Assembly (NCBI GenBank): GCA_001818155.1
Contig: MHJU01000003.1
Location: forward strand, 1 to 36,293
From: Candidatus Jacksonbacteria bacterium RIFCSPLOWO2_02_FULL_44_20
Lineage (GTDB): Bacteria > Patescibacteriota > Patescibacteriia > UBA9629
Reading direction: 5' to 3'
DNA length: 36,293 nt
The translations under genes were made by a program, and so were the position numbers. Below the pieces are notes generated by a model. That model did no database searches. It was not told where the DNA came from and saw nothing but the letters and a program-made list of their open reading frames with translations. Shown here piece after piece: positions 7,626 through 36,293 of the stretch (its first letter is position 1; every line of letters begins with the position of its first letter).

Positions 7626-10076
7626 ATGCGCATATCATCTATACAACTTGATGGTTTCAAATCGTTTCGCGCTGAAACGACTCTTACATTTCCAAAGTCC
7701 ATAACCGCAATCGTCGGCCCAAACGGAAGCGGAAAATCCAATGTTGCTGACGCATTCCGGTGGGTTTTGGGCGAGCAGAGCCTGAAAGCCGTCAGGAGCG
7801 AAGACCAGACTGATGTTATCTTTGGCGGATCGGCAAAACAGCACAAACTTTCCCGCGCCGCTGTTACTATACGATTTTTGAGAGACGAAAACGATAATAA
7901 AGGAAACATTGACTCTCCGGAAATTGAAATTCGCCGTAAAATCTACATAAACGGCGAATCCTCGTACGAACTGCAAAAGCGCTCTGCGCGTCTTTTGGAT
8001 ATTCAACTGTTTCTTGCAGAGCGAAATGTCGGAGAGCGCAATTACGCTGTTATCGGTCAGGGGCAGATTGACGAGGTTCTGCGCCGTTCGCCTGCGGATA
8101 GAATGGATTTTTTTTATGAAGCGACCGGCGTTAAAAAATATCAGATTAAACTTCACAAAGCGCGGCTGAAACTATCCTCATCGCGCGAGAGAATTTCGCA
8201 AACAAACGCGCTTCTAAAAGAGCTGGGCCCGAGGAAATCCTATCTTGAAAAACAAGCCGGAGAGTATGCGAGGCGGAAAAATATTATGGACGATCTTTCA
8301 AAAAAATACAGAATCTATTATCGCGGACTCCTCTTTGAATTTGACGCGGAGCTAGCTCGAAAACATCACGATTTGCAACAATTAGAAAAAGAATTCAAAA
8401 AAGCGGAAACCTCTGCGCTGAATTTGGAATCAGAGATTGAGCGGGCAACAAGCGATTTTTCGCATGGAGAGAAAGACGCGCGCATTATGTCGGAAATATC
8501 GCGTCTGTCCTGCGAGCGCGACCTCGCGCGCGAGAGTTTGCGTGAAGTTCAGCATAGCGCGCGCGAGCGTCTTTTGGGCGAGGGAAAATTTGATATCGCA
8601 TTTCTTCGCAGACGCGCGCAAGAGCTTGAAGAACTACTTACAGCTATCCGCAAAGAGAGCTATGAACTTGAAGCGTCAATTACTCAAATAACCGCGCGTT
8701 TTGTCGCGGGCGAAAAGGAGATTTCAAAAATCGCGCAGACCATTTTGGGGTTGAAGAATCACCAGACGTTTTCCAAGTTAGTGGTGATTGAGAAACTTGA
8801 GGAAATCGTTGAATTCACAGACTCCGCGCGCGTCAAAAAAGAATTGCGCGAGTTTATAGAACAATTGCGCCGCGATGACATCGCAAGTTCAATTTCTGAA
8901 CGGGAAGAATTGTATCGCGAACAAAAAGCGGCTCATGACGAGGTGAGAATTGAACTCAAGGTTCTTGAGGAAAAACGCGGAATGATAACCGTCGGCGAGA
9001 GGAGAAGCCGCTCCGAATATGAGGATGTGAAATTGAAATTGCAGAAAAGCGAGTTTGGCGTTACAGAACAGTTATTAAAAGATGTTGAACTCGTTATTTC
9101 CGAGCGAAAAATAGAACTTGCGGAAATTGATGCGGGAATCAAAAAATATGAAGATGAACGCCGGGAGTTAACGCGCGAGATGGATTCCGGGCGTTTGAAG
9201 TTAGTGGAATTGCAGAAGTCGTATCGCGGCGCAGAGGAGCAGAAAAGCCATGTGTCCGATTTGCTCCAGGCAGTGAAAATTGACATCGTGCGCATTGAAA
9301 CAAAACGCGAGGAGGCCGTGCGCGAGATGGTTGAGAAAGTAGGCGAGGCACTGGCAGAGACGATTTCTAATACAAAAGATACTATTCAAAATCCAAACGA
9401 TCTCCGCGCGCTTAAGGCGGATCTGCGCCGATTGGAGCATGACGCGGCTTTAATTGGCGAGGTTCCGGAGGATGTGCTTGCGGAATACAAAGAGGTAAAG
9501 GAAAGATTTGATTTTTTAACCGCGCAATCGTCGGACTTGGATTCTGCCGTCGCTTCGCTTGAAAAAATCAGCCTTGAACTTGAGCGCGAAATTAAAACGC
9601 AGTTTGCAGAGAAATTTCATAATTTGAACCTCGCTTTCGGCGCGTATATTAATGAATTATTTTCAGGCGGCAACGGAGAACTTTCAGAAATTACGATACA
9701 AAAAGAGAACGATGAAGGAAATATCGTTGAACGCGACGGAGTTGAAATCACCGCTCATCCGCCGGGTAAAAAAATAAAACATACCGGAGCGCTTTCAGGA
9801 GGCGAGAGGTCGCTTGTTGCGGTTGCGCTTCTATGCGCTATTATATCTTCGAACCCGCCGCCGTTTGTGATCTTGGACGAGATAGACGCGGCGCTTGACG
9901 AGGCGAATTCAAAACGGCTCGCGGATATCATTCAAAAATTATCCGCCCGCACGCAATTTATTATCATCACTCACAACCGCACAACAATGGAGGTTGCCGA
10001 CTCTCTTTACGGCGTTACTATGGATGACGATGGCGTGTCGCGATTAGTGAGCGTTAGTTTAGAAGGGTATGAGTAA
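7626..10076 (+). CDS. Short SMC-family chromosome segregation ATPase lacking an obvious hinge
   Basis: The 816-residue protein has SMC head halves at both ends. The N-terminal half begins MRISSIQLDGFKSF, with Walker A GPNGSGKSN at residues 31-39. The C-terminal half has signature LSGGERS at about 723, Walker B FVILDEID at 747-754 and H-loop ITHNR. Between about 165 and 680 it is nearly all charged heptad-type coiled coil. Bacterial SMC proteins are usually 1150-1200 residues with a globular hinge of 150-200 residues. Here only a short non-coil stretch near residues 370-410 could act as a turn, and no zinc-hook CxxC is visible. It may act in chromosome organisation or DNA repair. It overlaps the TruB fusion gene by 8 bases. 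No scpA or scpB is nearby. Confidence 0.8.
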   Translation: MRISSIQLDGFKSFRAETTLTFPKSITAIVGPNGSGKSNVADAFRWVLGEQSLKAVRSEDQTDVIFGGSAKQHKLSRAAVTIRFLRDENDNKGNIDSPEIEIRRKIYINGESSYELQKRSARLLDIQLFLAERNVGERNYAVIGQGQIDEVLRRSPADRMDFFYEATGVKKYQIKLHKARLKLSSSRERISQTNALLKELGPRKSYLEKQAGEYARRKNIMDDLSKKYRIYYRGLLFEFDAELARKHHDLQQLEKEFKKAETSALNLESEIERATSDFSHGEKDARIMSEISRLSCERDLARESLREVQHSARERLLGEGKFDIAFLRRRAQELEELLTAIRKESYELEASITQITARFVAGEKEISKIAQTILGLKNHQTFSKLVVIEKLEEIVEFTDSARVKKELREFIEQLRRDDIASSISEREELYREQKAAHDEVRIELKVLEEKRGMITVGERRSRSEYEDVKLKLQKSEFGVTEQLLKDVELVISERKIELAEIDAGIKKYEDERRELTREMDSGRLKLVELQKSYRGAEEQKSHVSDLLQAVKIDIVRIETKREEAVREMVEKVGEALAETISNTKDTIQNPNDLRALKADLRRLEHDAALIGEVPEDVLAEYKEVKERFDFLTAQSSDLDSAVASLEKISLELEREIKTQFAEKFHNLNLAFGAYINELFSGGNGELSEITIQKENDEGNIVERDGVEITAHPPGKKIKHTGALSGGERSLVAVALLCAIISSNPPPFVILDEIDAALDEANSKRLADIIQKLSARTQFIIITHNRTTMEVADSLYGVTMDDDGVSRLVSVSLEGYE

Positions 10077-11181
10077 AGGTTATCTTTTAATCAACAAACC
10101 ACCGGGACCGACTTCGCACGATGTGATAGATAAATTGCGTGGCATCACAGGAGAACGTAGAATTGGACACGCGGGAACCATTGACCCTTTTGCGAGGGGT
10201 CTTTTATTAGTCGGAGTAGGGCGCGAAGCCACGCGAAATTTGGGAAAGTTTGTTGGGCTTGATAAGCGATACAGGGCGATTTTGAAGTTGGGAGCGGTGA
10301 GCAATACGTATGATAGAACCGGGGAAATCACTGATTACGGAGTACCAATTACTAATTATGAATCGCGAATTCATAGCGTGCTGAATTCATTTATTGGAAA
10401 AGAAAAGCAAATCCCGCCGCAGTATTCGGCAAAAAAAATTAAAGGCAAAAAGGCGTACGAGTTTGCTCGCGCTGGGACTGAAGTTTTGCTAAAACCGCAA
10501 GAGATTGAAATTTACGATATAAAATTACTCGCCACAGGCCACGAACTATTCGCTTTAGAAATTCACTGTTCATCAGGAACATATATCCGTTCTCTTGCCC
10601 ATGATATTGGTCAAAAACTAGGATGCGGAGCGTACATTGAAGAGTTAACGCGCGTTGCGATCGGGAATTTTACTCTGGAAGAATCAACTGCCTTGCAAGA
10701 TATTTCGCCAGAGAATTGGCAATCGCACTTGATTACATTCCGGACCGTCATGGCAACAGGAACATTTGAAATTTTACATAAAGGTCATGAACATTATCTT
10801 CGCGAAGCAAAAAAACTGGGTGAGAGGCTTTTAGTTGTTGTTGCGCGCCAAAATCGCGCTGAAGAATTGCGCGGACGGAAATTGCGGAAAACCGCAGAGG
10901 AACGCAGAACGCGCGTCGCGTCTTTCAAGTTTGTGGACGAGGCAATACTCGGAGACGAACGCGATCCGTACGAATCGGTAAAGAAAATCGCGCCGGACAT
11001 CATTGCGCTTGGCTACGACCAGGAGTTGTTTGTCCGCGAATTGCCGGTAAAAATTAAAGAGTTTGGGCTTTCAACAAAAATCGCCCGCATTCCGCCTTAT
11101 ATGGCAGAGCAGTATAAAAGTTCACTTATTGTTTCCGATTCACCGTATCGTGCACTGCTTACAAATCCCAAGGCTCTCTAG
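10069..11181 (+). CDS. truB: TruB tRNA pseudouridine-55 synthase fused to a RibL-type FAD synthetase-like nucleotidyltransferase
   Basis: Residues 1 to about 215 are TruB, which makes pseudouridine 55 in tRNA. KGYLLINKPPGPTSHDV and GHAGTIDPFARGLLLVGVG carry the catalytic Asp39, followed by PPQYSAKKIKGKKAYE and the S.GTYIRSLA.D.G motif. From about residue 225, MATGTFEILHKGHEHYL begins a complete cytidylyltransferase-fold domain with the GTF..LH.GH motif at 231-240. GRKLRKTAEERR, VDEAILGD and PDIIALGYDQ then match archaeal RibL FAD synthetases best. The reading frame is continuous across the junction. In many bacteria truB and ribF are neighbours, so the fusion joins two genes known to travel together. 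The 3' end overlaps the convergent GH15 gene by 42 bases. Confidence 0.88.
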   Translation: MSKGYLLINKPPGPTSHDVIDKLRGITGERRIGHAGTIDPFARGLLLVGVGREATRNLGKFVGLDKRYRAILKLGAVSNTYDRTGEITDYGVPITNYESRIHSVLNSFIGKEKQIPPQYSAKKIKGKKAYEFARAGTEVLLKPQEIEIYDIKLLATGHELFALEIHCSSGTYIRSLAHDIGQKLGCGAYIEELTRVAIGNFTLEESTALQDISPENWQSHLITFRTVMATGTFEILHKGHEHYLREAKKLGERLLVVVARQNRAEELRGRKLRKTAEERRTRVASFKFVDEAILGDERDPYESVKKIAPDIIALGYDQELFVRELPVKIKEFGLSTKIARIPPYMAEQYKSSLIVSDSPYRALLTNPKAL

Positions 11182-24068: not shown

Positions 24069-24611
24069 ATGCAGAGTAATACTGAAAGAGCCAATGATTT
24101 GCCAAGCATACACAAGTGCCGCGATCTTTGGGACAAATACAAAATGCCAGAGAATATCCGCGCTCATACGCTTTCAGTTGCGCGCTTTGCGGACGCGGTT
24201 GCGGCACATCTTGTAGCGCAGGGGATTGCGGTTGATAAGGAATTAGTAAACCGCGGCGCGCTTTTGCATGACATTGCGAAATTGCGCGGCATTCAAGGAG
24301 GAAAAGACGTGCATCACACAGACGAAGGCGCGGCGATTCTTGGGGAAGAGGGATGGGGTGGTAGGCTTGCGAATGTGGTGCGTTATCATGGGACTGAAGA
24401 TTTTTCGTTTGCTCTCCCGATTGAAGACCAGATTGTAAATTATGCTGATCGGCGCGTGGTGCACGACAGAATAGTTTCTCTAGAGGAGCGATTGGCAGAT
24501 TTGTCAAAGCGCTATCCGGGCGCGCTGAAAATTATAGATGAGAAAAGGCCGTTATATGTGGAGTTTGAGGAGCGGTATCATTTACAACAACTAATTTTTG
24601 ACGATGAATAA
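24069..24611 (+). CDS. HD-domain phosphohydrolase inside the suf cluster
   Basis: The 180-residue protein has the HD superfamily ligands: RAHTLSVA (first His, about residue 32), LLHDIAK (HD pair, about 66-67), VHHTDEGA and VRYHGTE (later His residues), and an Asp in NYADRRV. Such domains hydrolyse nucleotides or other phosphomonoesters using divalent metal. The substrate is unknown; relatives include YqeK-like and HDIG proteins. The gene sits 2 bases after sufC and overlaps sufB by 8 bases, so it is firmly in the operon. An HD gene is not a standard Suf component. Confidence 0.85.
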   Translation: MQSNTERANDLPSIHKCRDLWDKYKMPENIRAHTLSVARFADAVAAHLVAQGIAVDKELVNRGALLHDIAKLRGIQGGKDVHHTDEGAAILGEEGWGGRLANVVRYHGTEDFSFALPIEDQIVNYADRRVVHDRIVSLEERLADLSKRYPGALKIIDEKRPLYVEFEERYHLQQLIFDDE

Positions 24612-27126
24612 ACAAAAAATCGCGTCAACAACTTATAAATGGGGATTTCACGATAAAGAAGCCCCGGTTTACAAATCCCCAAAAGGGCTTTCGCAAAAAG
24701 TTGTTGAAAGCATATCGCACTACAAAAGCGAGCCCGCGTGGATGCGGGATTTTCGTTTGCGCGCGTTAAAAATTTTTTTTGCAAAGCCTCTGCCGTCATG
24801 GGGCGCTGATTTAAGCGCGATTGACTTTAATAATATCTATTACTACATTAAGCCAACCGAGGCCACTATGCACTCGTGGAATGAAGTTCCAGACAGAATC
24901 AAAGCCACTTTTGACAAGCTCGGCATCCCTGCGGCTGAACAAAAGTATTTAGCAGGAGTGGGCACGCAGTATGATTCCGAGAATGTGTATCATAATTTGC
25001 GCGAGTCGCTCGCGAAACAAGGAGTGATTTTTAGCGATGTAGAAACCGCTCTAAAAGAGCATCCGGAATTAGTGCGCAAGTATTTTGCAACTGTTATCCC
25101 GCCCGGCGACAACAAATTCGCGGCGTTAAATTCCGCCGTGTGGTCGGGCGGTTCATTTATTTATGTGCCGCCCGGGGTTCATGTTGAACAACCTTTGCAG
25201 ACATATTTTCGCATCAACGCAAAAAATATGGGGCAGTTTGAGAGGACGCTTATTATTGTGGATGAAGGCGCTTTTGTTCATTATATTGAAGGTTGCAGCG
25301 CGCCGATTTACGCGACATCATCTTTGCATACAGCGGTTGTTGAAATTATCGCGCTTCGCGGTTCGCGCGTCCGGTATACCACGGTGCAGAACTGGTCAAA
25401 CGACGTGTATAATTTAGTAACCAAACGCGCGTTTGCCCACGAGGACGCGGTAGTTGAATGGGTGGATTTTAATATGGGGTGTCTTGCCGGGAGTAGCAAA
25501 ATTTATGTTTATGGAAAAGGCGTGGTTGATATGAAAGATGTGAAAATAGGTGATGAAGTTTATTCTGTTAACACTGATACACTTATACCTATGAAGAAGA
25601 AAGTTGCCGGTGTTCAAGATAACGGCACGAGAGAGACATATCGCCTGGTAACTATAGATCATCGAGAGATTGTTGCAACTGACAACCATCCATTTTTAAC
25701 ATTGGAGAGCGGAGGTGTTGGAAGAAGTAACCGCTATCTAAAGTGGCGACCATTGAAGGATTTACAGGAGGGAGATTATATTGCAGTCGCTGATAGTTTA
25801 CCGGACGACGGATCGCCATATCGGATTCAGTTTCAATACAAACCACTAAAGCAAGCCAAATATCACATTCAAATTCCCACGGAAACTAATAAAGAGCTTA
25901 TGTGGATTCTCGGCGCATACTTAGGTGATGGGTATTTTGAGTACGATAAAGTGAAAAGCATTCCACGTCGGCTTCGAAGAGTATATTTTGCGGTTCCTCC
26001 ACACGATAATGCGCGTCAAAAGTTAGAGATATACTTACAAAAAGTGTTCGGTATAGATTTCTGGCGTAATAAGGGGATTTGTCTAACTATCGGATCTAGT
26101 ATATTAGCCCAATTTATCCACGATTTGGGGTTTGGAGGCGGTGCCCGTACTAAGCGGGTTCCACAGTGGGTATACACTCTCCCTCATAAGCAACAGTTAG
26201 CATTTATAGAAGGATACTTAGATACAGATGGCAGTGAACGGCATAAAATGGTTAAAGATGGAATTCAATATGGGCAATTGACATTTACCAGTTGCAATAA
26301 AGAGCTTCTTCAAGATATGAAGTATGTGATGATATCGTGCGGTTTGAAGCCGTTAAAGATCAGCACGTATATTGCGAGTAGAAAGTTAACAGAAGGGAAA
26401 GAGGTAAAAGAGTATATAACTCATTTTTTGACACTCAATATCAGAGAGGATCTAGAGATAATAAGAAACAAATGCTCAAAGCGAGAGAACCAAATAGAAT
26501 TTGTTAAGATTAGAGAAGTTGTGCCTGATAAAAAGCAAAAGGTATATGATTTGGAGGTAGAAGGAACTCATAATTTTATAGCAAACGGAATTGTAGTTCA
26601 TAACAGCAAGATTACAATGAAATACCCGGCTGTGTATATGGTCGGGCGCGGGGCGCGTGCGGATATTCTTTCTATGGCATACGCAGGCGCGGGACAGCAT
26701 TTAGACGCCGGCGGAAAAGCAGTGCACTTGGCAAGCGATACTTCATCGCGCGTGATTTCAAAGTCCGTCTCCCACGGCGGCGGGCGCACTTCTTACCGCG
26801 GGCTTTTGAGGGTTGGCAAAGGCGCGCGCGGCGTTAAATCAAAAGTGCAGTGTGATGCCTTAATTTTAGACCAGGCTTCGCGCTCGGACACCTATCCGGT
26901 GATGAAAATAGAAGAAGATGACGCGACCATTGAGCACGAAGCAACGGTTTCAAAAATCGGCGAGGAGCAGTTGTTTTACTTAATGTCCCGAGGGCTTACT
27001 GCCGACGAAGCCGCGCTTATGATCGTAAACGGCTTTATAGAACCCCTCGTTAAGGAGTTGCCATTAGAGTACGCGGTTGAAATGAACCGTATGATAGCCC
27101 TTGAGATGGAGGGGAGCGTGGGGTAA
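24604..27126 (+). CDS. sufB: Fe-S scaffold protein SufB interrupted by an intein
   Basis: The 840-residue precursor has an N-extein of 292 residues, an intein of 375 (25480-26604) and a C-extein of 173. Splicing gives a 465-residue SufB, the normal length. The N-extein carries the SufB hallmarks YVPPGVHVEQPLQTYFRIN, FVHYIEGCSAP and QNWSNDVYNL. The C-extein holds SKITMKYP, SVSHGGGRTSYRG, CDALILD, TIEHEATVSKI, LMSRGL and EAALMIVNGF. SufB is the scaffold subunit of the SufBCD complex. ATG 24604 is chosen; the frame also has a TTG at 24598. Overlap with the HD gene is 8 bases. The extein junctions GCACAG-free sequence keeps the reading frame throughout, so only protein splicing is needed. Confidence 0.95.
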   Translation: MNKQKIASTTYKWGFHDKEAPVYKSPKGLSQKVVESISHYKSEPAWMRDFRLRALKIFFAKPLPSWGADLSAIDFNNIYYYIKPTEATMHSWNEVPDRIKATFDKLGIPAAEQKYLAGVGTQYDSENVYHNLRESLAKQGVIFSDVETALKEHPELVRKYFATVIPPGDNKFAALNSAVWSGGSFIYVPPGVHVEQPLQTYFRINAKNMGQFERTLIIVDEGAFVHYIEGCSAPIYATSSLHTAVVEIIALRGSRVRYTTVQNWSNDVYNLVTKRAFAHEDAVVEWVDFNMGCLAGSSKIYVYGKGVVDMKDVKIGDEVYSVNTDTLIPMKKKVAGVQDNGTRETYRLVTIDHREIVATDNHPFLTLESGGVGRSNRYLKWRPLKDLQEGDYIAVADSLPDDGSPYRIQFQYKPLKQAKYHIQIPTETNKELMWILGAYLGDGYFEYDKVKSIPRRLRRVYFAVPPHDNARQKLEIYLQKVFGIDFWRNKGICLTIGSSILAQFIHDLGFGGGARTKRVPQWVYTLPHKQQLAFIEGYLDTDGSERHKMVKDGIQYGQLTFTSCNKELLQDMKYVMISCGLKPLKISTYIASRKLTEGKEVKEYITHFLTLNIREDLEIIRNKCSKRENQIEFVKIREVVPDKKQKVYDLEVEGTHNFIANGIVVHNSKITMKYPAVYMVGRGARADILSMAYAGAGQHLDAGGKAVHLASDTSSRVISKSVSHGGGRTSYRGLLRVGKGARGVKSKVQCDALILDQASRSDTYPVMKIEEDDATIEHEATVSKIGEEQLFYLMSRGLTADEAALMIVNGFIEPLVKELPLEYAVEMNRMIALEMEGSVG
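25480..26604 (+). other. LAGLIDADG intein in SufB
   Basis: The 375-residue intein begins at Cys1 (CLAGSSKIYV) and ends IVVHN, with penultimate His374 and terminal Asn375, followed by extein Ser. Block B is VATDNHPF (T67, H70). The homing endonuclease has two LAGLIDADG helices, ILGAYLGDG (143-151) and FIEGYLDTDG (242-251), both with the acidic catalytic residue. Block F is VYDLEVEGTHNF. All splicing residues are present, so it should be active. It lies between Gly and Ser in the conserved SufB stretch DFNMG-SKITMKYP. Its base composition is poorer in the GCG/CGC codons that dominate the exteins, suggesting lateral arrival. Confidence 0.95.
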
Positions 27127-31571: not shown

Positions 31572-31634
31572 TTGACAGTGCAAGTGATGCGATGTAAAAT
31601 AGATGTTGCAACAGTAAAAAAATTTCATGGAGGT
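31572..31634 (+). promoter_or_regulatory. Strong promoter and Shine-Dalgarno of the CBS-domain gene
   Basis: A perfect TTGACA (31572-31577) and TAAAAT (31595-31600) are exactly 17 bases apart. A leader of about 35 bases follows, with Shine-Dalgarno GGAGGT (31629-31634) six bases before the ATG at 31641. This is the best match to the sigma-70 consensus in the window and proves the start codon. The longer reading from 31572 would begin inside the promoter. Confidence 0.8.
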
Positions 31635-31640
31635 TCATTT

Positions 31641-32099
31641 ATGATCGCACAGGATATCATGACAACTGACTTGGTTACCGTTACAGAGGACACACCCATT
31701 ACTGAAGCGGCAACAGTATTAGAGCAACATGCGCTTACGGGGATGCCTGTTGTGCAAGGCACCAAGGTCGTAGGCATTATCACTGAAGGAGATTTTATTT
31801 TAAAGAATACTCACCTTCATCTTCCATCTTTGGTTCGTATTTTAGGCAGTTTGAATTTTGACCGTCGCGCAAAAAAGTTGATTAACACAGAATATCAGAC
31901 ATTAAGCAGAGGTATCGTAAAGGACATCATGACAAGAAATGTTGTTACGGTAAAGCCGTCAATGGATGTTACGAAAGTTGTTGAACTGTTCCGATCTAAA
32001 AATGTAAACCCTGTGCCGGTTGTAGATGATACTAATAATTTAATTGGTATTATCAGCAAGGCGGATTTAGTCAAATTAGTAAGCGGATTATTAAAATAA
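31641..32099 (+). CDS. CBS-domain pair protein
   Basis: The 152-residue protein is a Bateman module of two CBS domains. The first is AQDIMTTDLVTVTEDTPITEAATVLEQHALTGMPVVQGTKVVGIITEGDFI (residues about 3-53) and the second VKDIMTRNVVTVKPSMDVTKVVELFRSKNVNPVPVVDDTNNLIGIISKADLV (about 96-147). Such stand-alone pairs bind adenosine nucleotides or SAM and regulate partner proteins; no partner is obvious here. The central stretch (LPSLVRILGSLNFDRRAKK) is the usual linker. It has its own strong promoter and Shine-Dalgarno, unlike neighbours. Confidence 0.9.
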   Translation: MIAQDIMTTDLVTVTEDTPITEAATVLEQHALTGMPVVQGTKVVGIITEGDFILKNTHLHLPSLVRILGSLNFDRRAKKLINTEYQTLSRGIVKDIMTRNVVTVKPSMDVTKVVELFRSKNVNPVPVVDDTNNLIGIISKADLVKLVSGLLK

Positions 32100-32125: not shown

Positions 32126-33646
32126 ATGTCAACCAAATCGAACCAAACAATTGAAACAACAACAGAAGATGTTTTGCGTACATTAAAGAACAGATACATT
32201 CTGATGATGCGCCAGCAGGTGCGGTCATGGAAAGCGTTTTTAATACTTGGTTTTTTCGCCGGCTTTACAGCGGCTTTTTTGTTTACCGCATCCGCTGATT
32301 TGACAGAAGGATTGTTTGCTAAGCAACCAGTTCCCCAGACGATACAAAACACCGCTTCTGTAGATTATCAAGACACCCAAGGCGCGCAAATGCAACAAGT
32401 GGTAAGTAATGCGGTTTCAATTAGTGTCTCACCCCAGAATGGACCGCCGGATCAGCCGCCGCAAGATACCACAGCTCCCGGCCAAGTTACTGATTTAACC
32501 GCGCTACAAAAGAACCAATCTGTGGTTGAATTAGTGTGGAGCGCCCCTGGAGACGATGGCATTATAGGCACGGCAGATCGGTACGACGTTCGTTTTTCGG
32601 GAGCGCAAATTACCGATCAAAATTGGCAACAACAACAAGGGATCAATGGAGTGTCCAAACCAACTGTAGCTGGTTCTATTGAGAAAGTTACTGTTTCTAA
32701 CCTCACAGCGAATACGACCTATTATTTTGCGCTGAAAACCTATGATGAGAGCAATAATGAAAGTTTGCTTTCTAATCAGGCAATTATCAGTATAGGCGAT
32801 GATAAAAAACCGGAAGATGCTATTGACACTACGCCTCCTGGGAGAATCACCACGCTCTTTCCAGATAAGGAGGTTACGGAAACTAGTATTCCATTACGCT
32901 GGATTGCGGTAGGAGATGATAATCATACAGGAGTCGCTTTTGAATATGATATTCGTTATTCTATCACAGAGATTAAAGATGAATCATCGTTTGCCTCTGC
33001 GCTCCAAATTTCTGATGAACCAAAACCAAAGAGCGTCGGAGCGCAAGAGAGCTATACAATAACCAATTTACAAAACAATACGGCATATTGGATTTCTATC
33101 AAGGCACGCGATGAGGTCGGGAATGCGTCCGAACTGGCAAATGTAGTGCGCGTACAGACCGGACAAGGGTTAGTGCCAGTTCCAAACCCCGGTTATGTAA
33201 GTAGAATTAAAATTATCATAGCGCCGGAAAAAAATTACAGAAAGGATATAGCTCAAGTGCGGTTGCGTATTCGCGATTCTTTAACCAAAGCAATTAAAGT
33301 TGAATTGAAACAGGACGCGGATGCGCAAGGAGCGATTGAGTACACACCTAACAATGTACTGAAAGAAATAGTTGATATAGTGATTCAGGCGCCGTATACG
33401 CTTACGAGAATTGTGAAGAATGTGGATCTTAACGAGACAGAGACAATCCCTCTCGCGGTTTCCGACATTAAAGTTGGTAATCTACAAGACGCCGATGACG
33501 TGATTAACAGTTTAGATTGGGCAGTTTTGAGCAGTAAGTGGGGCACGGGAGACAAGGATGCCGATTTCAATCAAGACGGTCTCATTAATAGTTTGGACTG
33601 GGGAATTATGAATAAGAATTGGAATGCTAAAGGAGAAGAAAATTAA
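32126..33646 (+). CDS. Membrane-anchored FN3-FN3-dockerin protein
   Basis: The 506-residue protein has a cytoplasmic N-terminus and one transmembrane helix (AFLILGFFAGFTAAFLFTA, about 37-55). A linker is followed by two fibronectin type III domains (about 115-225 and 235-345), each opening with D-TTxPGxxTxL and ending N-T-YYFALKTYDESNNES or N-AYWISIKARDEVGNAS. A further beta domain lies at about 350-450. The C-terminus (454-499) is dockerin-like with two F-hand-like repeats sharing INSLDW. The second loop (480-491) has canonical D.N.DG.IN..D, while the first is degenerate. The protein is predicted to sit at the cell surface. A cohesin protein is encoded right downstream. Confidence 0.82.
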   Translation: MSTKSNQTIETTTEDVLRTLKNRYILMMRQQVRSWKAFLILGFFAGFTAAFLFTASADLTEGLFAKQPVPQTIQNTASVDYQDTQGAQMQQVVSNAVSISVSPQNGPPDQPPQDTTAPGQVTDLTALQKNQSVVELVWSAPGDDGIIGTADRYDVRFSGAQITDQNWQQQQGINGVSKPTVAGSIEKVTVSNLTANTTYYFALKTYDESNNESLLSNQAIISIGDDKKPEDAIDTTPPGRITTLFPDKEVTETSIPLRWIAVGDDNHTGVAFEYDIRYSITEIKDESSFASALQISDEPKPKSVGAQESYTITNLQNNTAYWISIKARDEVGNASELANVVRVQTGQGLVPVPNPGYVSRIKIIIAPEKNYRKDIAQVRLRIRDSLTKAIKVELKQDADAQGAIEYTPNNVLKEIVDIVIQAPYTLTRIVKNVDLNETETIPLAVSDIKVGNLQDADDVINSLDWAVLSSKWGTGDKDADFNQDGLINSLDWGIMNKNWNAKGEEN

Positions 33647-33651
33647 AATAT

Positions 33652-34284
33652 ATGAAATTAACACATCCAATCAAATATACCATTATTATCTGCATTGCAG
33701 TTGCGGCGGCGGCGAGCTTCTTTTATTTTCAATCCGGGTTTTTGGTGGAGGTAGAACAAAATTTTGCGTCAATCTCTCAAACCGCGCAATCGTCTCTTAT
33801 AAGCAGAGCAAAAATTTTTCGGAAAAAACCAAAAGAATCTCGCGTCATACAGAACGCGTCTTTGCAATTGACGCCTAATCAAACCGTTGTCGGTAGCGAG
33901 GCACGAGATGTGCAGACCACTATCATGCTTGAGGCAAAGAATCGCAAAATTGCCGGGGTTGATATAGTTATCACATACGAGCCTCTTTTTGTCGCCATAG
34001 ATGATATAGCAGTCGCCGATACCATGGAGACGGTCGCATTGAAAAAGATTGATGCAGAAAATGGACGCATATACCTTTCTCTCATGGCGCAGGCGGGTGG
34101 CTATATTGAAGGGAATCATGCGCTTGCGACAATTCTATGGCATCCATTAACCGAGGGGGATACTTCGTTTGCGTTTGACTATACTCCAGGACTCGCTGAA
34201 GACACAAATGTCGCGGAATTTGCAACCGGAAACGATGTCTTAACCTCTGTGGTCAATGCGCGTTATGCTATTAGAGGTCAATAA
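33652..34284 (+). CDS. Membrane-anchored cohesin-domain protein
   Basis: The 210-residue protein has a transmembrane helix at about 9-27 (YTIIICIAVAAAASFFYF) and a basic linker. A beta-sandwich at about 68-207 matches cohesin: LQLTPNQTVVGSEARDVQTTIMLEAK, then KIAGVDIVITYEPLFVAIDDI. Later come GRIYLSLMAQAGGYIEGNHALATILWHPLTEGDTSFAFDYT and the closing strand VLTSVVNARYAI. Cohesins bind dockerins tightly. The dockerin protein ends 5 bases upstream, so the two are one operon and may interact. Cohesin subtype cannot be judged from sequence alone. Confidence 0.72.
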   Translation: MKLTHPIKYTIIICIAVAAAASFFYFQSGFLVEVEQNFASISQTAQSSLISRAKIFRKKPKESRVIQNASLQLTPNQTVVGSEARDVQTTIMLEAKNRKIAGVDIVITYEPLFVAIDDIAVADTMETVALKKIDAENGRIYLSLMAQAGGYIEGNHALATILWHPLTEGDTSFAFDYTPGLAEDTNVAEFATGNDVLTSVVNARYAIRGQ

Positions 34285-34329
34285 GTGGTTTTTCGCGATA
34301 CCTCTCTTTCGCCGACACTGTTACCCATG

Positions 34330-34362
34330 AAAATACTTTTCTCAAAGGAGGAGAGTATTTTT
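34330..34362 (+). terminator. Hairpin with T-run and embedded Shine-Dalgarno between cohesin and lyase genes
   Basis: AAAATACT (34330-34337) and AGTATTTT (34354-34361) pair perfectly and end in five T (34358-34362); an inner CTC/GAG adds pairs. This is terminator-like after the cohesin gene. The loop side holds AAAGGAGGAG (34344-34353), a strong Shine-Dalgarno-like sequence with no ATG at normal distance. Confidence 0.5.
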
Positions 34363-34398
34363 ATAGGTGAGTCCGATCAATAAGCCGGAAAAAACTCT

Positions 34399-36293
34399 AT
34401 GACACACAATATATCACCGCAACTGACGCGATTACTCGGATTCCTTACGCTCTTTTTTGTTTCAGCGCTTGTCGGAGTTGCAAGCGGAATAGGCGTTACG
34501 CATGTCGTCAAGCGTTTCGCGCTCGTCGCTCCTCAAAATGCAGAAACGATTGCGCAGGCGAGCGAGGGGAAAGTGCTCGGAGAGACAGATTTCAAAATTG
34601 CCCAAACCACGTCTTTTTTTGACTGCGCTAAATCCCCCTACAATACTTCCCCCGCCTGCCTTGGCGAGCATCCGCGGATCCATATCACGCAAGACACACT
34701 GCCGTATTTTCGCAACAAGATCGCTACGTATTACAAAAGCGAGTACCAGCAATTCGTCAATTGGGTAGATACGAATTTTACTGTGGAAGATGACCCCGAT
34801 ACGTCAGGATTGATGGCAGACTACCATGCGCTGATTTATCTCCTAGGACCGATTAATGGTATTACATACGGTCACAGTATGACCGAATATCGTGATCGCG
34901 CAATCGGTAATATGTTGTGGGCGGTGGCAAACTGGACAGATATAGGAAAAGCACGCGCTTATCGTTACAATGGTTACGCTATTGTCGCTCGGGCGTACGA
35001 TTGGGTATGGGCTGATATTGTACCGGCCGATAGAACAAAGATTGTGAACTGGTTGGCAGAAATAGGAACATCTGCACTGAATAGTATGAAGTCAGATCCG
35101 CCATGGCTATTTAGTTCATCTTACTTTGAAGGTTTCCATCCCTGGTATTGGGGCCTTGCATTTTATGGAGACGGAATTCGCGACGCAGATGCTCAAACGC
35201 TCGTAAATGGCTTTGATACTTTGATGTTAAACGGCAAATGGCTTGACGCGCAAAATTGGGTTGCCAGAAATAATGGCGGAGTAAGTGAATATGGCAACTA
35301 TATTCTTGGGCATCCGGTGAGTCATATTATCAACATTGATGGATGGCGGACGGCAACCGGTGAGGACTACTTTGCTCAAGGAACCAGCGTAGCAAATTCT
35401 GATTTCATGAAAAATCATCCCAAGCTTGTGCTCTACACCATAAAACCGTTTGGGAAGACCAATTCCCAGGCAGCGGGAGGGGCTGACTGGAAAATGATTA
35501 AAGTCGGTCAAGCCGGTGCAGGAACGGGAATCGGTGGTCCCCAGGTTATAGTCTCGTTAGGGGAGACCTTGAAAGTGATAGATCCCGATATGGCGGCACT
35601 GAACCGTTGGATTATAGATAACCGTGTTGGCGAGAGGTTGGATCAGTGGAACTCAGAGTGGCATCATATTCTCTACTTCCTGTTTGGCGACCGATCCGTT
35701 GCCCCCAGGTCGCCCGCGGATCTAGGACTGTCTACGGATCAATTTTTTGAAGGGTTAGGCATGGCTGTGATGCGCACTGGATTTGATAGTTTGAATGACA
35801 CGACCATAGCTGTCCTTGCGCCGCCATACTTTTTGCAAGGACATAGTTGGGACCAATGGACAGCTATTCCCACAGGCTTTACGGTTGATAAATATGGGCC
35901 CCTGGCAATTAAACAGTTAGGCTACATCCGCGGCAACATCGGCTATTCATTTCGCAACAATTTTATACGTTTCACCGATCCCTTAAAGACCCCCAGTGCC
36001 GGCTTTCCCATGGTGGGTATGCCCCAAGTTCCCAAAGATGTTCGGCAGTACACCCCTGGAAGTCCATGGGACCTTGGCGGGATGAAACGACGAATTTTTG
36101 ATTCCAATTATGACTATTTGTATATGGATTACACGAAATATTACGATTCCGCTCGGGTGTCGCTTTACACGAGACAATTCGCCTATTTCAAGCCAGATTC
36201 CAACCAGGAAAGTGATTACATCGTCATCCTTGATCGCACCCAAACCACCCGCCCTGACATTATCAAGCGCTGGGCGCTTAATATGGCGTACAA
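34399..36293 (+). CDS. Heparinase II/III-like polysaccharide lyase, secreted or surface-anchored (3' end outside window)
   Basis: The frame is open from ATG 34399 to the window edge (631 residues). An N-terminal hydrophobic segment (LLGFLTLFFVSALVGVASGIGV, about 12-33) is a signal or anchor. The mature part opens with LGEHPRIHITQDTLPYFRNKI, typical of the (alpha/alpha)6 toroid of heparinase II/III and alginate lyases. Toroid-like helices (YNGYAIVARAYDWVW, WYWGLAFYGDGIRDAD) follow. Next comes a region with GLGMAVMRTGFDSLNDTTIAVLAPPYFLQGHSWDQW, like the C-terminal beta-sandwich segment (G...R.GWD...GHS..D). The substrate is a presumed acidic polysaccharide. The missing C-terminus could carry a dockerin or other surface module. 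Confidence 0.65.
   Translation, partial: MTHNISPQLTRLLGFLTLFFVSALVGVASGIGVTHVVKRFALVAPQNAETIAQASEGKVLGETDFKIAQTTSFFDCAKSPYNTSPACLGEHPRIHITQDTLPYFRNKIATYYKSEYQQFVNWVDTNFTVEDDPDTSGLMADYHALIYLLGPINGITYGHSMTEYRDRAIGNMLWAVANWTDIGKARAYRYNGYAIVARAYDWVWADIVPADRTKIVNWLAEIGTSALNSMKSDPPWLFSSSYFEGFHPWYWGLAFYGDGIRDADAQTLVNGFDTLMLNGKWLDAQNWVARNNGGVSEYGNYILGHPVSHIINIDGWRTATGEDYFAQGTSVANSDFMKNHPKLVLYTIKPFGKTNSQAAGGADWKMIKVGQAGAGTGIGGPQVIVSLGETLKVIDPDMAALNRWIIDNRVGERLDQWNSEWHHILYFLFGDRSVAPRSPADLGLSTDQFFEGLGMAVMRTGFDSLNDTTIAVLAPPYFLQGHSWDQWTAIPTGFTVDKYGPLAIKQLGYIRGNIGYSFRNNFIRFTDPLKTPSAGFPMVGMPQVPKDVRQYTPGSPWDLGGMKRRIFDSNYDYLYMDYTKYYDSARVSLYTRQFAYFKPDSNQESDYIVILDRTQTTRPDIIKRWALNMAY

Follow-up and report, generated by a model that had tools for sequence, protein, structure and literature searches.

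What purpose would a dockerin protein and a cohesin protein serve in a bacterium of small genome, when the two are encoded side by side and each carries a hydrophobic helix of its own at the N-terminus? The question is raised by genes at the end of contig C3 (MHJU01000003.1) of Candidatus Jacksonbacteria bacterium RIFCSPLOWO2_02_FULL_44_20. The window analyzed here is that whole contig (36,293 bases) from a draft genome of 41 contigs, whose total of 1.07 Mb agrees with the streamlined bacterium supposed in a first-pass annotation of the sequence; cassette relatives from named genomes belong to Parcubacteria/Paceibacterota. We propose, with moderate confidence, that the locus is a non-cellulosomal cassette in which cohesins and an X module-dockerin dyad (XDoc) assemble proteins on the cell's own surface.

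In the dockerin protein, the N-terminal transmembrane (TM) helix is preceded by a cytoplasmic-type N-terminus that is conserved across the TM-dockerin family, and two FN3 modules (PF00041, E=1e-14) were found. The dockerin family PF00404 scored 37.7 bits (cut-off 22.9) on the isolated C-terminal 56 amino acids (aa) and 21.9 bits, slightly below the cut-off, on the full 506-aa protein. Alignments and an AlphaFold2 (AF2) model show two F-hand calcium-binding repeats and two helices in this module. The second repeat is a canonical calcium loop; the loop of the first is non-canonical, with one residue more than in the common dockerins of the class and no Asp at its first position. The AF2 model of residues 339-506 (the last 168) has a predicted local distance difference test score (pLDDT) of 82.4 and a predicted TM-score (pTM) of 0.75, and its ten top PDB matches are all XDoc chains of cellulosome scaffoldins or type II complexes, the best being 5g5d_B (E=8.4e-10, TM-score 0.67/0.71; TMt at most 0.72 among the top ten). 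According to this model, an X module stands N-terminal to the dockerin, as in a type II XDoc. The C-terminal dockerin of the first-pass annotation was thus borne out by the profile score and by the XDoc match, and its FN3-FN3-dockerin layout holds for the FN3 and dockerin modules, the X module between them having been overlooked.

The neighboring 210-aa protein gave no match in a Pfam search (PF00963), being a divergent member missed by the profile, and its assignment as a cohesin is made because of fold and homology rather than a Pfam score. It aligns with the genome's other cohesin protein (E=4.2e-15), which lies on contig C31, and scores 27 bits with a cohesin hidden Markov model (HMM) built from the class. 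Its AF2 model (pLDDT 89.7) consists of a long N-terminal helix and a beta-sandwich, and all 50 of the 50 PDB matches listed by Foldseek are cohesins or chains of cohesin-dockerin complexes (top match 4dh2_C, E=9.6e-9, TMt 0.70). Because the AF2 input alignment contained other cohesins, the model cannot count as evidence separate from that homology, whereas its high confidence for the window sequence can. The possibility that this protein lacks a cohesin fold is ruled out by AF2 and Foldseek despite the silent Pfam profile, and the earlier call of a cohesin is confirmed. Hydropathy likewise upholds the N-terminal membrane helix that had been claimed for both proteins (peak of the cohesin helix, 1.6-1.9).

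Do the two proteins belong together? Searches at the family and order level, with only 2-4 genomes, gave nothing outside the organism's own genome. We rely on a class sample of 381 genomes, of which 82 contain a PF00963 cohesin and 138 a dockerin in Pfam searches; 80 cohesin-surrounding regions were fetched from it, giving 65 genomes with an HMM-called cohesin, the window genome counted in. A dockerin gene on the same strand and within 300 nucleotides (nt) of the cohesin gene was found in 54 of these 65 genomes, with a median gap of 6.5 nt, against a rough chance expectation of about 0.1 genome. The dockerin HMM used in this count was partly seeded with adjacent dockerins; a manual count that used only Pfam coordinates gives at least 29 of the paired genomes. 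Dockerin comes first in 56 pairs and the reverse order is seen in 10, and in several of the 11 unpaired genomes the cohesin is located at a contig end. Cohesin and dockerin also occur in a single polypeptide, in G349 and G329 of the class sample and in L172, L188, L194 and L197; in L172 it is the TM-dockerin protein itself that includes a cohesin. Chance adjacency is ruled out by these numbers, and the pairing of the two proteins, supported by conserved adjacency and natural fusions in the sequences compared, has a far better footing than adjacency in one genome. That the two are cohesin- and dockerin-fold proteins with separate roles that merely sit next to each other, a reading to which the non-canonical first loop lends something, is very improbable in view of adjacency far above chance, tiny gaps, occurrence in both orders and natural fusions.

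Table 1. Features at the cassette end of the window (positions are those of the whole contig).
Feature	Position	Strand	Basis
CBS-pair protein, directly upstream of the dockerin gene	31641..32099	+	PF00571, 109.6 bits
FN3-FN3-X-dockerin protein, membrane-anchored, 506 aa	32126..33646	+	open reading frame list, Pfam, AF2/Foldseek, hydropathy
N-terminal TM helix of the dockerin protein, residues 35-57	32228..32296	+	hydropathy; family alignments A5, A10
X-like beta-sandwich module, residues ~361-448, directly N-terminal to the dockerin	33206..33469	+	AF2 model of 168 residues, strands 23-110
Dockerin module: repeat 1 GNLQDADDVINSLDW, repeat 2 ADFNQDGLINSLDW	33476..33634	+	PF00404, alignments, AF2 helices 124-132 and 151-159
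Membrane-anchored cohesin, 210 aa: N-terminal hydrophobic helix and cohesin at residues ~69-208	33652..34284	+	homology, HMM, AF2/Foldseek, hydropathy
Terminator-like hairpin in the cohesin-lyase gap; 17-bp central stem 34327-34364	34321..34370	+	folding of the 114-nt gap
Heparinase II/III-superfamily polysaccharide lyase, N-terminally anchored, 3' end cut by the contig end	34399..36293	+	profile search, alignment, hydropathy

The pair is part of a larger conserved arrangement. In G157, G007, G032 and L171 (a named Parcubacteria genome), the gene directly before the TM-dockerin-type gene is a CBS homologue, and the N-terminal anchor profile of the dockerin protein matches only G000, G007, G032 and G157 in the class sample. 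The order CBS, TM-dockerin, TM-cohesin of about 210 aa and secreted cohesin-FN3 protein is seen in both G157 and L171. Outside the class, a TM-dockerin gene followed by a TM-cohesin of about 200 aa and a further cohesin is present in L185, L187, L192, L198, L199 and L202, some of the dockerins being weak and that of L185 being read by eye. In the phylum sample of 380 genomes, which includes part of the class sample, a cohesin was found in 111. The window version is the rarer one: in the common class version the dockerin protein looks secreted and the cohesins have C-terminal TM anchors. The common operon (L118, L128, L136) resembles the window in that the dockerin gene is directly followed by cohesin genes; its dockerin protein consists of Ig-like modules and a dockerin, whereas the window proteins have N-terminal anchors, the dockerin protein included. 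Genes resembling signal peptidase I and histidyl-tRNA synthetase, identified by eye, are located downstream of the cohesins in two cassette types (L171 8433-10398 and L166 10023-11003). Also noticed were proteins, about 1,100 aa long, that contain many dockerin-like repeats in tandem (G096:C18, G067:C169, G026:C2, G029:C19 and G122:C28; L043, L044, L046, L047 and L052); these genomes encode cohesins as well (G026: L166), and the repeat proteins are possibly inverse scaffoldins.

The second cohesin protein of the genome probably supplies the missing end of the window cassette. It is a signal-peptide cohesin-FN3 protein of 653 aa (C31:4319-6280; PF00963, 37.6 bits), encoded 27 nt after a second lyase gene on contig C31 (6,290 bases), which starts just upstream of that lyase. 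C31 probably continues C3, because its secreted cohesin shares the architecture of the fourth gene in L171; to judge from this gene order, the lyases would have been inserted between two cohesin genes. Compared with the window lyase, the second lyase gene has its frame broken and an in-frame TAG toward the 5' end (C31, L004, 69-512), which may be decay or an assembly error near the contig start.

On these grounds we suggest the following assembly. The dockerin protein would be held in the membrane by its N-terminal helix with the two FN3 modules projecting outward, and the X-dockerin dyad at the end of this stalk would resemble the anchoring end of a cellulosome scaffoldin. The dockerin would plug, probably with calcium, into a cohesin of the same cassette. 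If the partner is the neighboring short anchored cohesin, the FN3 stalk would be looped with both ends tied to the membrane, or the dockerin would be held there until exchange; if it is the secreted cohesin-FN3 protein of C31, that protein would thereby be displayed on the surface. A genome-wide search of the draft found one dockerin above the cut-off, that of the FN3 protein, which leaves the cohesins without any other detectable partner. The lyase may be an accessory surface enzyme added by the lineage, possibly trimming or feeding on host or environmental glycans, and its binding to the scaffold is not required by the proposal.

Several points weigh against this proposal. The non-canonical first dockerin loop makes calcium binding there uncertain, and the loop alignments are compatible with a possible single-loop or altered calcium mode. 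An uncleaved anchor and a signal peptide are not fully separable by hydropathy, least of all for the cohesin. A shared operon is no proof of same-cell geometry. Finally, the continuity of C3 and C31 is drawn from relatives rather than seen.

Could the locus instead encode a minimal cellulosome-like complex, in which cohesins or dockerins gather enzymes that degrade glycans, the lyase for example, at the surface? The lyase has an N-terminal hydrophobic helix by hydropathy, and its gene is incomplete because contig C3 stops exactly at 36293. Alone it gave no Pfam match; a profile of five homologues searched against PDB recovered heparinase II (2fuq, E=3.7e-11) and the alginate lyase Atu3025 (3a0o, E=6.9e-8), so that the heparinase-like enzyme of the first-pass annotation stands at profile level. 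Residues Y301 and H482 align to Tyr365 and His531 of Atu3025, which we take to be catalytic residues, and Y301 is invariant in the five homologues. With this profile similarity and the Tyr/His pair retained, the enzyme belongs with the heparinase II/III superfamily; it is similar at profile level to heparinase II (PL21) and Atu3025 (PL15) but differs in its N-terminal anchor and in the PKD, Big2, LamG and DUF11 tails of its paralogue. That paralogue, on C31, is 50% identical to the window lyase, with a main frame of 1,259 aa (two PKD, Big2, LamG, DUF11 and HepII_C, PF18675).

The lyase lies within the cassette. In G007, where it occupies the corresponding place, the CBS and TM-dockerin genes are followed by a GH30-like enzyme (PF17189) whose C-terminus bears a dockerin-like repeat, and then by the lyase; both facts favor a cellulosome-like complex. 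The glycosidase with its repeat, at L156 4242-6224 (G007:C15), adjoins both the anchored dockerin protein and the lyase. Against such a complex, the C31 paralogue has a complete C-terminus in which a domain search found neither cohesin nor dockerin, and the genome has one dockerin and no multi-cohesin scaffoldin that could be found. The idea that the lyase carries a dockerin is unsupported by the paralogue, the C-terminus of the window lyase itself lying beyond the contig end. Moreover, the lyase is present in 4 of the 381 class genomes, compared with 82 for the cohesin: besides the window genome it was detected in G007, G099 and G143 only, with neither dockerin nor cohesin called near it in the latter two, and a lyase scan across the named genomes gave no match. 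A gene found in so few genomes looks like an occasional glycan-active passenger, and its earlier inclusion as a cassette part is not sustained for the core. A similar short C-terminal motif (DW..V.AIAYSGA) was seen in some lyases (L157 4981-8607, L158 4961-9094) and in cohesin proteins of L088 and L090; it is possibly a common surface-attachment signal.

Comparison with known systems leads the same way. A cellulosomal scaffoldin has several cohesins and usually a carbohydrate-binding module (CBM); the 41-contig draft was found to contain single-cohesin proteins only, one PF00963 match and the window protein. Cellulosomal enzymes bear dockerins; here the sole dockerin found sits on the FN3 protein. 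The statement that the arrangement is unlike a cellulosome was therefore correct for this genome, with no scaffoldin array and no dockerin-bearing enzyme found. Clostridial type II cohesin-XDoc pairs (CipA XDoc; PDB 2b59, 5g5d) are similar in that a C-terminal XDoc on a long surface protein meets a cohesin partner at the cell surface, but the window XDoc protein has a membrane anchor of its own and lacks both a CBM and an array of cohesins, and the TM protein proposed to be its partner carries a single cohesin. Taken with the lyase evidence, a minimal cellulosome is in our judgment unlikely.

Parallels are also found elsewhere. Non-cellulosomal cohesin and dockerin proteins are described in Archaeoglobus fulgidus and ANME archaea (PMC9012536, citing Peer et al. 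2009), and cohesin/dockerin proteins have been reported in other uncultured bacteria (PMC9012536, PMC8542988). The archaeal proteins are similar to those of the window in having few modules, no evident cellulose degradation and a surface location; the window differs in being a defined multi-gene cassette of conserved order, which has TM-anchored partners and, in its own type, a CBS gene, and which belongs to a phylum of bacteria with small genomes. For Patescibacteria, the open-access literature, searched mostly by title and abstract, yielded no description of such a cassette or of cohesin partners, a negative that is weak evidence.

The one relevant mention found for that phylum concerns an epibiotic Saccharibacterium, which is reported to require both an FN3 protein and a protein with a dockerin domain (SEML1_0315) as essential components; the authors speculate on host glycans (PMC10633639). 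This finding favors a role in host attachment (episymbiosis), in which the FN3 and secreted cohesin modules would bind host glycans or proteins and the cohesin-dockerin pair would merely anchor a putative adhesin. We give this explanation a low probability as a rival, and it is compatible with assembly on the cell's own surface rather than an exclusive alternative to it.

The first-pass annotation had suggested a homotypic device, in which the anchored dockerin of one cell binds the anchored cohesin of a conspecific cell and leads to aggregation or biofilm. XDoc-cohesin pairs are mechanically strong, and this strength, together with the membrane helix on each partner, would suit adhesion in trans. 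Yet the genes lie 5 nt apart in every cell, so that pairing within one cell would be in competition; the cohesin has a short ectodomain (about 140 aa past the linker), with little reach to another cell; and the cassette of the relatives includes a secreted cohesin. Since each genome encodes its own dockerin and cohesins in a single cassette, plus a further secreted cohesin in two relatives and on C31, same-cell assembly fits at least as well as cell contact. The homotypic device is accordingly not borne out, and we regard it as quite unlikely.

All three open reading frames of the first-pass annotation were found at their coordinates, and with the CBS gene they are co-directional, separated by 26 nt (CBS-dockerin), 5 nt (dockerin-cohesin) and 114 nt (cohesin-lyase). 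The CBS reading frame reaches back to a TTG at 31572; its homologues begin near the ATG at 31641. The 114-nt gap folds with a minimum free energy of -34.5 kcal/mol (z=-3.5; 0 of 200 shuffles equally stable). Its hairpin was not called in a consensus terminator scan, probably because the T run sits within the stem. With this hairpin in the gap, the lyase may belong to a separate transcription unit or an attenuated one, so the single gene run proposed earlier holds for direction, while a shared transcript including the lyase is uncertain. An Rfam scan of the window found three tRNAs and no other family. Elsewhere in the window, the SufB gene (24598-27126) is interrupted in frame by an intein that has a LAGLIDADG endonuclease domain (PF14890, PF14528), and at 10069-11181 a TruB pseudouridine synthase is fused with a cytidylyltransferase-like domain (PF01509 and PF01467).

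Similar gene sets recurring across the group suggest an overlooked system for the assembly of surface proteins. We tentatively extend the proposal, as a plausible though less probable step, to an ancient, phylum-wide surface-assembly system of Patescibacteria, in which anchored XDoc or dockerin proteins and anchored or secreted cohesins would act as exchangeable calcium-dependent latches, unrelated to cellulose degradation and needed for surface architecture or host attachment. Cohesin-dockerin pairs have been studied almost solely as parts of cellulosomes; here a compact, conserved cassette would place an XDoc-type plug and cohesin sockets on the membrane of the cell that makes them. Should the two bind, protein engineering would gain new plug-socket pairs, and the way in which these bacteria, most of them uncultured, build their surface would become open to molecular tests.

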